From: Arcticibacter svalbardensis MN12-7
Lineage (GTDB): Bacteria > Bacteroidota > Bacteroidia > Sphingobacteriales > Sphingobacteriaceae
DNA: 41,676 nucleotides
NCBI RefSeq assembly: GCF_000403135.1
Contig: NZ_AQPN01000047.1
Location: 1 to 41,676 of the forward strand
Direction of reading: 5' to 3'
The notes under the pieces were generated by a model. That model worked only from the letters and a program-made list of their open reading frames with translations. It ran no database searches and had not been told where the DNA came from. The translations under genes and the position numbers were made by a program. Shown piece after piece: positions 12,160-14,723 of the stretch; position 1 is the stretch's first letter; each line of letters starts with the position of its first letter.

Positions 12160-12879
12160 ATGGATAAAGATACCCTTTCCTCCTCTATATTGATTAAGAA
12201 AAACGAGGATAGAAAACGAACATTTAAGGATAGAAAGCGAACTAATATATTAAAGAGTACCGAACAAAATGCAATTGGATGGCTGGTGAGTAAAATGCCG
12301 GCTTTTATTTCTCCTGACATGCTTACAGGACTCGGAATGTTTGGGAGTTTTCTTGTTCTTGTAGGGTTTCTTTTAGCCGCTCATTTTCATGTATCCTATC
12401 TTTTGGTTGGGGTAGCGGGACTTGCTATAAACTGGTTGGGCGATTCGTTGGATGGTAGAATTGCCTATTACAGAAATATTCCAAGGAAGTGGTATGGGTT
12501 TTCACTGGATATCATTATGGATTGGATCAGTACGATTCTGATGGGCCTGGGCTTTTTAGTTTACATTAAAGGGGACTTTGAAATTGTTGCTTTTCTTTTT
12601 GTGGCTTTTTATGGCTGGGCAATGATTATTTCTCAACTTCGGTATAAAATCACAGATAAATATACTATTGATTCAGGGATATTTGGCCCTACAGAAGTTC
12701 GCCTTCTTATTTGTGCCCTTCTGATTAGTGAAATTTTCTTTGCAGGCTCTATTGACTGGCTTGCCATGATGATGTGTTTTGCTTTGTTTATTATTAATTT
12801 GATTGATACCAAGGATCTATTGGCTCTGGGGGATCAGCGTGACCTTGAGGATAAAGCCGCCAATAAAAATAATAAATGA
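12160..12879 (+). CDS. CDP-alcohol phosphatidyltransferase family membrane protein
   Basis: The enzyme transfers a phosphatidyl-type group from a CDP-linked donor to an alcohol within the inner membrane. After a charged 40-residue N-terminus come about five or six hydrophobic segments. The active-site motif is 'DSLDGRIAYYR' then 'GFSLDIIMD', giving the four metal-binding aspartates (D-x2-D-G ... G-x3-D-x3-D). The canonical Arg after D-G-x2-A is Tyr here, with Arg two positions later and one extra residue before the second Gly. The N-terminus holds a 21-bp duplication encoding DRKRT twice (12208-12249). It overlaps gtrA by 4 nt (ATGA). Which lipid or polyprenol product is made cannot be told. 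Confidence 0.82.
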   Translation: MDKDTLSSSILIKKNEDRKRTFKDRKRTNILKSTEQNAIGWLVSKMPAFISPDMLTGLGMFGSFLVLVGFLLAAHFHVSYLLVGVAGLAINWLGDSLDGRIAYYRNIPRKWYGFSLDIIMDWISTILMGLGFLVYIKGDFEIVAFLFVAFYGWAMIISQLRYKITDKYTIDSGIFGPTEVRLLICALLISEIFFAGSIDWLAMMMCFALFIINLIDTKDLLALGDQRDLEDKAANKNNK

Positions 12880-13295
12880 TCAATCGGTCTTCATTAAAGA
12901 TTTTTATTAGGGCTCAGTTCTCCGCCTTTACAGGAGGCATAGCTGATTACCTGACTATGATTTTTTTTACTGAAGTCGTCGGGTTTCATTATACCCTTTC
13001 TATATTTATTGGTGGAACTATAGGAGCCGTTGTTAATTTTACCATTAACAGATACTGGACTTTCAAAGTTAATAATGAAGATCAAAAATCGATTAATGCC
13101 CAGTTATTCAGATTTTGTTTGGTTGTATGTGGTAGTATTTGCTTGAAAATTTCAGGTACTTATTCATTGACTGAACTACTACGACTGGACTATAGGATCA
13201 GTCGGCTTGTTGTAGATTTGATCGTCTCGCTATTATTCAACTATGTTCTTCAAAAGCATTGGGTTTTTGTAGCGGCAAGTAGAAAAAGCAGATAG
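12876..13295 (+). CDS. GtrA family membrane protein
   Basis: A 139-aa protein with four membrane helices and the family features 'RAQFSAFTGGIADYLTMIFF' near the N-terminus and 'FTINRYWTF' mid-protein, plus the repeat-like C-terminal 'FNYVLQKHWVF'. GtrA proteins are proposed flippases for polyprenyl-linked sugars used in surface glycan modification. It is translationally coupled (ATGA) to the CDP-alcohol transferase gene, which suggests a joint role in a lipid-linked precursor step; that is inference. No terminator was seen after it; instead a degenerate 30-bp direct duplication and an antisense-oriented riboswitch follow. Confidence 0.85.
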   Translation: MINRSSLKIFIRAQFSAFTGGIADYLTMIFFTEVVGFHYTLSIFIGGTIGAVVNFTINRYWTFKVNNEDQKSINAQLFRFCLVVCGSICLKISGTYSLTELLRLDYRISRLVVDLIVSLLFNYVLQKHWVFVAASRKSR

Positions 13296-13310
13296 AATAT
13301 TTGTTTTGAA

Positions 13311-13370
13311 CTGTTTGATTTAATTGGCTTGTTTTTGGAAGTGTTTAATTTAATTGGTTAGTTTTTAACT
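13311..13370 (+). repeat. imperfect 30-bp tandem duplication
   Basis: 13311-13340 and 13341-13370 match at about 22 of 30 positions, sharing TTTAATTGG and GTTTTT blocks with a period of exactly 30. It lies just after gtrA. Confidence 0.5.
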
Positions 13371-13487
13371 TTTTAATTTTAAGCTAGTTTTATTTTGTTT
13401 AGTGTTCGGAGATAGTTGCAGAATCGGCATCCTGTTTAAAATGAAGAGAAGCTTTTTTTCTGGCTCCTCTGCTAGAATGTTAGGCAT
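13365..13487 (-). CDS. 40-codon ORF downstream of the TPP riboswitch
   Basis: This ORF begins with ATG 19 nt after the 3' end of the riboswitch aptamer and encodes 40 residues beginning MPNILAEEPEKKLL. It is the only ORF the riboswitch could control before the oppositely oriented gtrA. It has no membrane segment, no recognisable thiamine-related motif, and the last third is Lys/Ser/Thr/Asn-rich low-complexity sequence. It could be a genuine small protein, the degraded start of a lost thiamine gene, or chance. An 8-bp inverted repeat (13445-13452 with 13463-13470) falls within its first half. Confidence 0.25.
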   Translation of the reverse strand: MPNILAEEPEKKLLFILNRMPILQLSPNTKQNKTSLKLKS

Positions 13488-13506
13488 TCCGGAATAATTA
13501 TATATA

Positions 13507-13580
13507 ACTTTTCCCTTCGGCTGTACGAGCAGCATCAGGTTCAAAGGGTCTTGATCTCAGCCTATGGGCACCCCTAAAGT
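13507..13580 (-). ncRNA. TPP riboswitch (thi box)
   Basis: Read on the minus strand, all conserved parts of the thiamine pyrophosphate aptamer are present in order: P1 strand ACTTT, then GGGGTGCCC, GGCTGAGAT, ACCCTTTGAACCTGAT, a GCTG/CAGC stem, CGAAGGG, and closing P1 strand AAAGT. GGGGT pairs with ACCC for P2, and GCC with GGC for P3. It starts 42 nt after the stop of the mannose-1-phosphate guanylyltransferase gene on the same strand, so it could be read through from there; no separate promoter was clear. No thiamine biosynthesis or transport gene follows. Confidence 0.92.
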
Positions 13581-13622
13581 ATTATAATTTATTTTCCTGG
13601 ATTATTAAAATCGTAGCTTTGA

Positions 13623-14723
13623 TTATACAAAGTTTTCGCCATACTTGGTTTTTACATCGGCAACGATCTGTTTTACTTCCTGTTCGCTTTCGCGGGGGAT
13701 AATCATCAGCGTATCGTTTGCTTCAGCAATTATATAGTCGTGCAATCCTTTGATCACTAATTTTTTGCCTTCAGGAATGTTGATCATACAGCCGGAAGTG
13801 TCGTGCAGAATTGTTCCCTCGGAAGGAATAACTACATTTTGGTTTTCATCCTTCTCAGCCAGGGAATATAAGGATGCCCATGTTCCTAAATCAGACCATC
13901 CAAATTCTACGGGTAAAACGAATACATTTTCAGCGTTCTCCATTATTCCATAATCAATTGAGATATTCTGGCAGTTTGGATAGTTCTCTTTTAAAAATGT
14001 GGATTCATTTCCGGTATTGTAAACGTTTCTTCCCTGAAGAAATAGCTTATTCATTTCGGGTAATTGTGTTTCAAAGGCTTTTAATACTTCTGCAGCACTC
14101 CATATGAAAATCCCTGCATTCCATAAATAATCACCACTCTTTAAAAAGCTTTCCGCGTGCTCTTTGTCGGGTTTTTCGGTAAACTGAGCTACTTTTTTAA
14201 AGCCATTACCTAATTCCTGATTGGAGTAACGGATGTACCCATAGCCGGTATCGGGTCTGGATGGCTGTATGCCAAGCGTAATCAAACAAGGGTTGCTTTC
14301 GGCAGTTTGCAAAGCATTGCTGACATCCAGTGTAAATTGACGTGTATTTAAGATTAAGTGATCAGAAGGTGCGACTACAATTGATGCCTTAGGATTGAGT
14401 TCGCTGATTTTGTGACAGGCATAGGCGATACATGGAGCTGTATTACGCATAACTGGTTCGCAAAGAATCTGGTAGTCCTGAATTCCTTTTAACTGTTCTT
14501 TGACGAGGTCCCTGTATTTGTCGTTTGTTAATATATATATGTTTTGTGTTGGAACGATATCTTTGAAACGCTCATAGGTTGCTTGGATGAGACTCATGCC
14601 TGTACCCGCAATGTCAATAAATTGTTTAGGATATGCGGTGCGACTAACAGGCCAAAAACGGCTTCCCACTCCCCCTGCCATAATAACAGCATAGTAATTG
14701 CTGTTTTGTGTTTGATTAATCAT
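13623..14723 (-). CDS. manC: mannose-1-phosphate guanylyltransferase
   Basis: It makes GDP-mannose from mannose-1-phosphate and GTP, the donor for mannose-, fucose- and rhamnose-type residues in surface glycans. The N-terminus has the nucleotidyltransferase signature 'AGGVGSRFWPVSR' (residues 16-28) followed by 'PKQF' (32-35). 'VAPSDHLI' is the metal-binding region, and 'FTEKPD' and 'WNAGIFIW' line the sugar site. At 366 aa it lacks the C-terminal phosphomannose isomerase domain of bifunctional enzymes. It stands alone on the minus strand, divergent from the aldo/keto reductase gene. Confidence 0.92.
   Translation of the reverse strand: MINQTQNSNYYAVIMAGGVGSRFWPVSRTAYPKQFIDIAGTGMSLIQATYERFKDIVPTQNIYILTNDKYRDLVKEQLKGIQDYQILCEPVMRNTAPCIAYACHKISELNPKASIVVAPSDHLILNTRQFTLDVSNALQTAESNPCLITLGIQPSRPDTGYGYIRYSNQELGNGFKKVAQFTEKPDKEHAESFLKSGDYLWNAGIFIWSAAEVLKAFETQLPEMNKLFLQGRNVYNTGNESTFLKENYPNCQNISIDYGIMENAENVFVLPVEFGWSDLGTWASLYSLAEKDENQNVVIPSEGTILHDTSGCMINIPEGKKLVIKGLHDYIIAEANDTLMIIPRESEQEVKQIVADVKTKYGENFV

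Follow-up and report, generated by a model that had tools for sequence, protein, structure and literature searches.

The TPP riboswitch is the most widespread of the vitamin riboswitches. In Bacteroides thetaiotaomicron, the accessible portion of one study describes three TPP riboswitches, all of which lie in the 5' UTRs of thiamine or transport genes (PMC7366714). Riboswitch RNAs can also work in other ways, and the available part of a second source gives two examples from Listeria, where the SAM riboswitch RNA SreA acts in trans and a B12 riboswitch controls the antisense RNA aspocR (PMC8079631). In a limited literature search, we recognised no paper that describes TPP aptamers without a gene as small RNAs, or a riboswitch that remained after its operon was lost.

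The window analysed here is a stretch of 41,676 nucleotides from Arcticibacter svalbardensis MN12-7, which forms one (C47) of the 149 contigs of this genome. A cmscan search of the whole window at the Rfam gathering threshold returned one match only, to the TPP aptamer RF00059, with 72.8 bits (E 1.3e-12) against a curated cut-off of 54.3 bits and with all positions 1-105 of the 105-position model aligned. The aptamer is complete, with its TGAGA and ACCTGAT cores. Conserved core stretches and helices are formed, and non-standard pairs occur at four positions, compared with ten in the corresponding aptamer of A. eurypsychrophilus. The window aptamer probably retains its fold and the capacity to bind TPP, with no gene in cis. 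A first-pass annotation had proposed a gene-less TPP aptamer on the minus strand at 13507-13580 and a check with RF00059, and the search, scoring above threshold, confirms this reading; the proposed interval is the core of the match (Table 1).

Table 1. Features of the orphan aptamer locus in the window
Feature	Position	Strand	Basis
TPP riboswitch aptamer RF00059, gene-less, thiS-type leader (CTTTAGGGGTG ... GGGAAAAG)	13495..13585	minus	cmscan; comparison with 109 other aptamers of the family
manC-like mannose-1-phosphate guanylyltransferase	13623..14723	minus	ORF, Pfam PF00483; adjoins the aptamer in three Arcticibacter genomes
Spacer from manC stop to aptamer	13586..13622	minus	no TAnnTTTG within 110 nt upstream
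AT-rich spacer, putative site of the deleted thi operon	13296..13494		no BLAST-detectable thi remnants
40-codon frame, probably not a gene	13365..13487	minus	frame not kept in sister species, no Pfam match, no convincing relative
Terminator-like hairpin, 8 pairs, loop of 10, weak T tail	13438..13463	minus	terminator scan; coordinates read from the sequence
gtrA-like membrane protein, convergent	12876..13295	plus	ORF, Pfam PF04138
CDP-alcohol phosphotransferase-like protein, upstream of gtrA	12160..12879	plus	ORF, Pfam PF01066 (22.4 bits, cut-off 22)

The aptamer starts 37 nt past the stop codon of manC and lies on the same strand, while gtrA and the CDP-alcohol phosphotransferase gene converge on it from the other side. 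No same-strand thiamine gene was found within 1.7 kb behind the aptamer, either in the window or in A. eurypsychrophilus. The spacer behind gtrA also contains an AT-rich near-repeat at 13318-13370, in which TTTAATTGG...TTTTT occurs twice.

Gene order in related species points to the origin of this arrangement. In A. eurypsychrophilus, manC is followed by an aptamer (65.6 bits), a spacer of about 150 nt, gtrA and the phosphotransferase gene. In A. pallidicorallinus, the order is manC, aptamer (78.6 bits), thiS, thiC, thiE-like, thiD, thiE, thiG, thiH, NUDIX, gtrA and phosphotransferase (gene names by Pfam), all on one contig and internal to it. The window aptamer is of the thiS leader type, and its stems are closest to those of the A. 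pallidicorallinus aptamer. An rpoB tree places A. pallidicorallinus as sister to the window species plus A. eurypsychrophilus (100/100). The phosphotransferase gene is absent from the other three genomes examined of the same GTDB genus, in which TPP aptamers precede other thi or TonB-type genes where checked. Because the A. pallidicorallinus operon sits at the same place, the window aptamer is very likely the surviving leader of a deleted thiamine operon, whose work is now done by a thi operon of foreign lineage elsewhere in the genome. The first-pass annotation had listed a remnant of a lost operon among its options and suggested looking for a thi gene behind the aptamer in relatives; A. pallidicorallinus, with a whole thi operon between aptamer and gtrA, supplies it, although the comparison genus is Arcticibacter and not Pedobacter as had been assumed.

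The ancestor of the three Arcticibacter species would thus have carried the thiS-thiC-thiE-like-thiD-thiE-thiG-thiH-NUDIX operon between manC and gtrA, and a single shared deletion in the common ancestor of the window species and A. eurypsychrophilus would have removed it. One deletion is favoured over two because the spacers of both orphans align at the junction: between the AT-rich spacer of the window and its counterpart in A. eurypsychrophilus, 105/199 alignment columns are identical and 53 are gapped. A blastn search with short words gave no significant match of the spacer to the A. pallidicorallinus or C96 operon (best E 1.5), which leaves synteny as the sole basis for the deletion. An assembly deletion hiding a thi gene was also considered and is very unlikely, since the separate assembly of another species, A. 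eurypsychrophilus, has the same gene-less arrangement.

Three further TPP aptamers are present in the window genome. The one on contig C96 precedes thiS-thiC-thiE-like-thiE-thiG-thiH, the one on C106 precedes thiM-thiE-thiD-tenA, and one on C147, below the cut-off, precedes a TonB receptor; the genome is therefore not short of thiamine genes. A single thiC locus was found, on C96. This thiC (L042 2211-4093) is split by a frameshift, with its Pfam match in two pieces, which may be a true loss or a sequencing error; the A. eurypsychrophilus copy is in one piece. In a tree of 22 thiC sequences, those of both orphan species group with two sequences from outside the genus (91/92), apart from A. pallidicorallinus. 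Constraining the three Arcticibacter thiC sequences to one group lowers the log-likelihood by 27 units (AU p 0.019), in a tree with weak forks and some long branches, including that of A. pallidicorallinus. Upstream of the C96 thi operon lies a piece of a gene with a phage-integrase domain (PF00589; L042 11-454), which fits a foreign lineage of this operon. Given the thiC grouping and the adjoining integrase piece, the thi operon used today was probably acquired. The replacement would have come from another lineage and entered at another site, likewise under a TPP leader.

What the surviving leader has lost can be seen against the intact one. In a sequence-based model of the A. pallidicorallinus leader, the aptamer 5' strand CUUUAGGGGUG would pair with a downstream stretch, CAUUCCUAAAG, which could instead pair with the thiS start, UUUAGGAAUG. 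TPP would thereby hide the thiS start and shut down thiS translation. The anti-aptamer complement comprises 11 pairs in A. pallidicorallinus, a number reached by 10/300 shuffles of the downstream stretch, and 11 pairs in the C96 leader (15/300 shuffles). The window has 7 pairs, which is not above chance (229/300 shuffles), and A. eurypsychrophilus has 10, 6 of them Watson-Crick (32/300 shuffles). On these counts, a switch is no longer recognisable in the window and is uncertain in A. eurypsychrophilus.

Promoter and terminator signals were sought around the aptamer. The TAnnTTTG motif was found upstream of 0/2 orphan aptamers, compared with 32/70 thi leaders; its absence is weak evidence because the exact motif is also missing from intact leaders, namely those of A. 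pallidicorallinus and both C96-type operons. A scan of 12800-13900 for sigma-70-type promoters gave three sites, not above chance (shuffles 3.5 +/- 1.9). One promoter-like site, at 13608-13581 on the minus strand, matches 10/12 positions and abuts the aptamer, but the sigma-70 consensus is unlike the usual promoters of Bacteroidota. For terminators, a stricter scan of the same interval with loops of at most 8 gave 0 sites, compared with 0.7 in shuffles. It missed the terminator-like hairpin behind the aptamer (Table 1), whose score was reached by 0/40 shuffles and for which the same scan that detected it found no counterpart in A. eurypsychrophilus. The remaining aptamer, if transcribed at all, would most likely form the tail of the manC message.

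As a control, we surveyed 131 genomes of the family and took all 110 TPP aptamers that reached the cut-off. In 90 of these, a listed homologue follows on the same strand within 1.7 kb: thiS (47), thiM (17), a methyltransferase (12), a TonB receptor (6), thiC (2), thiD/thiE types (4) or a CDP-alcohol transferase (2). With the CDP-alcohol transferase left out, the count is about 86-88/110 if the methyltransferase is included and 76/110 if it is not. The methyltransferase genes (for example L016 1501-2383, L049 from 4551, and L017) are followed by an AIR-synthase-like gene in the examples read; this pair is putatively TPP-controlled and was not recognised as a known thiamine gene. Both aptamers placed before a CDP-alcohol phosphotransferase gene, at L038 5428-6160 (genome G020) and at its equivalent in G081, precede a gene that by eye is of another subtype than the convergent one near the window aptamer.

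The other 20 of the 110 are gene-less and consist of the two Arcticibacter orphans and 18 more. Nine further low-scoring, previously unexamined aptamers of the largest genus contributed another three, which brings the gene-less aptamers outside Arcticibacter to 21 in eight genera (g4 7, g17 4, g6 3, g8 2, g16 2, and one each in g5, g18 and g37). In 16/21, the nearest ORFs of at least 70 codons lie on the opposite strand on both sides. G052 resembles these 16 save for a 102-codon frame, and in G127, G090, G049 and G193 at least one flanking frame lies on the same strand. In genus g4, the RNA is present in 7/9 genomes examined and always faces the same convergent gene, which Pfam identified as a glycine dehydrogenase in the single case examined; two g8 genomes have a CinA-like gene next to the RNA (Pfam run on one of them). 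The g4 loci are L196 1925-2021, with a terminator to about 2080, L187, L188, L197, L179, L199 and L202, each a candidate TPP-binding small RNA. Those in the seven other genera are L041 5126-5221, L182, L153, L164, L170, L172, L204 10252-10347, L173, L192, L180, L200, L216, L217 and L220. One free-standing member belongs to Albibacterium bauzanense.

These aptamers carry signals that are rare in thi leaders. An uninterrupted stem of at least 8 pairs with a T tail follows 16/21 of them but 5/66 thi leaders; the remaining five (G077, G066, G050, G127 and G090) have interrupted stems, judged by eye only. The sequences were inspected first and a promoter-like pattern, AAAC...GT..TT, was then picked from them; it occurs in 9/18 free-standing aptamers versus 1/70 thi leaders and 0/20 other gene-bearing aptamers. 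A looser variant gave 5/18 versus 2/70, and in the later set of nine aptamers the pattern occurs in 2/3 gene-less ones versus 0/6 others. By reading, the P1 stems differ in sequence between genera while complementarity is kept. When seven aligned g4 members were folded, three pairs had changed on both sides, all in the terminator and none in the aptamer, and the covariation term was -1.1, so covariation support is slight. The 21 gene-less aptamers are thus candidate small RNAs that would bind TPP and stand free of any gene, each with a promoter and a terminator of its own, apparently an undescribed use of the TPP riboswitch.

How strongly the Arcticibacter orphan has been held was judged from its conservation between the window species and A. 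eurypsychrophilus. The aptamer core is identical at 70/74 positions, whereas four-fold sites of the neighbouring genes are identical at 213/279 (66 differ): 106/136 in manC, 43/54 in gtrA, whose alignment ends in 10 gapped columns, and 64/89 in the phosphotransferase gene. At the four-fold rate, four or fewer changes in 74 positions have P = 2.7e-5, a comparison between folded-RNA and codon sites, which are not fully comparable. At the average rate of the manC coding sequence (62/1101 changed), P is 0.6, which puts the conservation of the aptamer close to that of the manC gene. Ungapped columns of the spacers between the two orphans are identical at 75% ahead of the aptamer and 72% behind it. 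In an ungapped comparison over its whole length, the orphan aptamer has 6/91 differences, whereas working leaders of the same two species have 0/88 (C96 type) and 3/94 (thiM type). Two of the orphan differences spoil a pair in A. eurypsychrophilus, one at the P1 end and one in the P4/P5 region, and the aptamer of that species falls 7 bits below that of the window and contains more non-standard pairs. The apparent constraint on the orphan aptamer is intermediate, because it varies less than the spacer but more than working leaders. The first-pass annotation had argued that an aptamer so undamaged is no long-dead relic; the 4/74 core changes since the orphans split support this, and the two spoiled pairs in the sister species weaken it.

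With 4/74 core changes against 66/279 at four-fold sites, the aptamer may still serve, perhaps in the manC 3' UTR. The conservation of its core suggests more than a plain relic and a use that the lost-operon explanation does not name. The main rival to that explanation, made so by conservation beyond the neutral expectation, is a working 3' UTR element, with selection keeping the aptamer at the end of the manC mRNA, where TPP binding or the fold itself would affect termination or decay. Its position on the same strand, 37 nt past the manC stop with no terminator-like site found between, fits such an element, as does the hairpin behind the aptamer in the window, yet that hairpin was not found in the sister species. 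The orphan has also changed more than either type of working leader and has lost two pairs in A. eurypsychrophilus, manC has no known link to thiamine, and the deletion could be recent relative to the species split. We regard this element as a tentative possibility. Its fuller form, in which the aptamer was co-opted after the operon loss as a TPP sensor or stabiliser in the manC 3' UTR and maintained by selection across a speciation, and gene-less TPP sensors are perhaps a recurrent class of working RNA, is doubtful to the same degree.

Other roles are less probable. In the window, gtrA converges on the aptamer about 200 nt behind it, and in the sister species about 150 nt, so that TPP-gated read-through into the 3' end of gtrA might yield an antisense RNA lowering the expression of gtrA and the phosphotransferase gene, much as a B12 riboswitch controls aspocR in Listeria in the available part of that account (PMC8079631). 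This is improbable, given that the spacer is poorly conserved, that no strong ligand-controlled terminator was seen in both species, and that the convergent layout is a simple consequence of the deletion. Membership of the window aptamer in the free-standing aptamer-terminator RNAs of the eight other genera, with which it shares the lack of a gene behind it, is more improbable still. By its features it is not a member of that class, because it has the short CTTT/AAAG P1 stem of a thiS leader where the group has other and often longer stems, because same-strand manC ends 37 nt upstream, because the window has a weak hairpin and the sister species no strong terminator, and because synteny gives it another origin; the promoter-like motif is absent as well. 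Least credible is control of the 40-codon ORF, which the first-pass annotation had offered as a small thiamine-responsive protein. The ATG frame is indeed present, and both orphan species have an ATG some 20 nt past the aptamer, but the sister species differs in reading frame and sequence, and the 40-residue frame, whose conservation the annotation had wanted compared, is not conserved. It has no Pfam match and no convincing relative among the loci compared (best tblastn E 0.31). In a mechanical ORF list, the same frame starts at a TTG inside the aptamer and runs for 59 codons.

The origin of the window aptamer as the leader of a deleted thi operon is ordinary, that of a leader outliving its operon. 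This riboswitch has outlived its operon through at least one speciation while an ancestor-like locus stays intact in A. pallidicorallinus, and the fate of a regulatory RNA after the loss of its target can therefore be traced base by base. Should selection be the cause of its slow change, this would be a TPP aptamer at the 3' end of a bacterial mRNA. From the survey, TPP aptamers without a gene appear to be common in this family, and a subset appear to be free-standing small RNAs. Three points give the locus its interest: a sister species keeps the ancestral arrangement, the aptamer has changed less than the flanking sequence, and the control survey revealed a probable free-standing class of TPP RNA.

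Compared with known systems, the closest parallels in Listeria share one point with the window aptamer, namely a riboswitch outside its 5' UTR role; as far as that source is available, SreA and aspocR sense SAM and B12 and SreA keeps its operon, whereas the window aptamer is known here from sequence alone (PMC8079631). The TPP riboswitches of B. thetaiotaomicron belong to the same RNA family and come from the same phylum, but they are leaders of thiS and thiamine transport genes, and the accessible portion of that study reports none of the three as gene-less (PMC7366714). Unlike the TPP riboswitches of thiS/thiC operons, the window aptamer has no thiamine gene and no recognisable switch or promoter, and it lies 37 nt behind manC. 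Like the RF00059 THI element upstream of such operons, it is a complete aptamer, and at the orthologous site in A. pallidicorallinus the operon is still in place.
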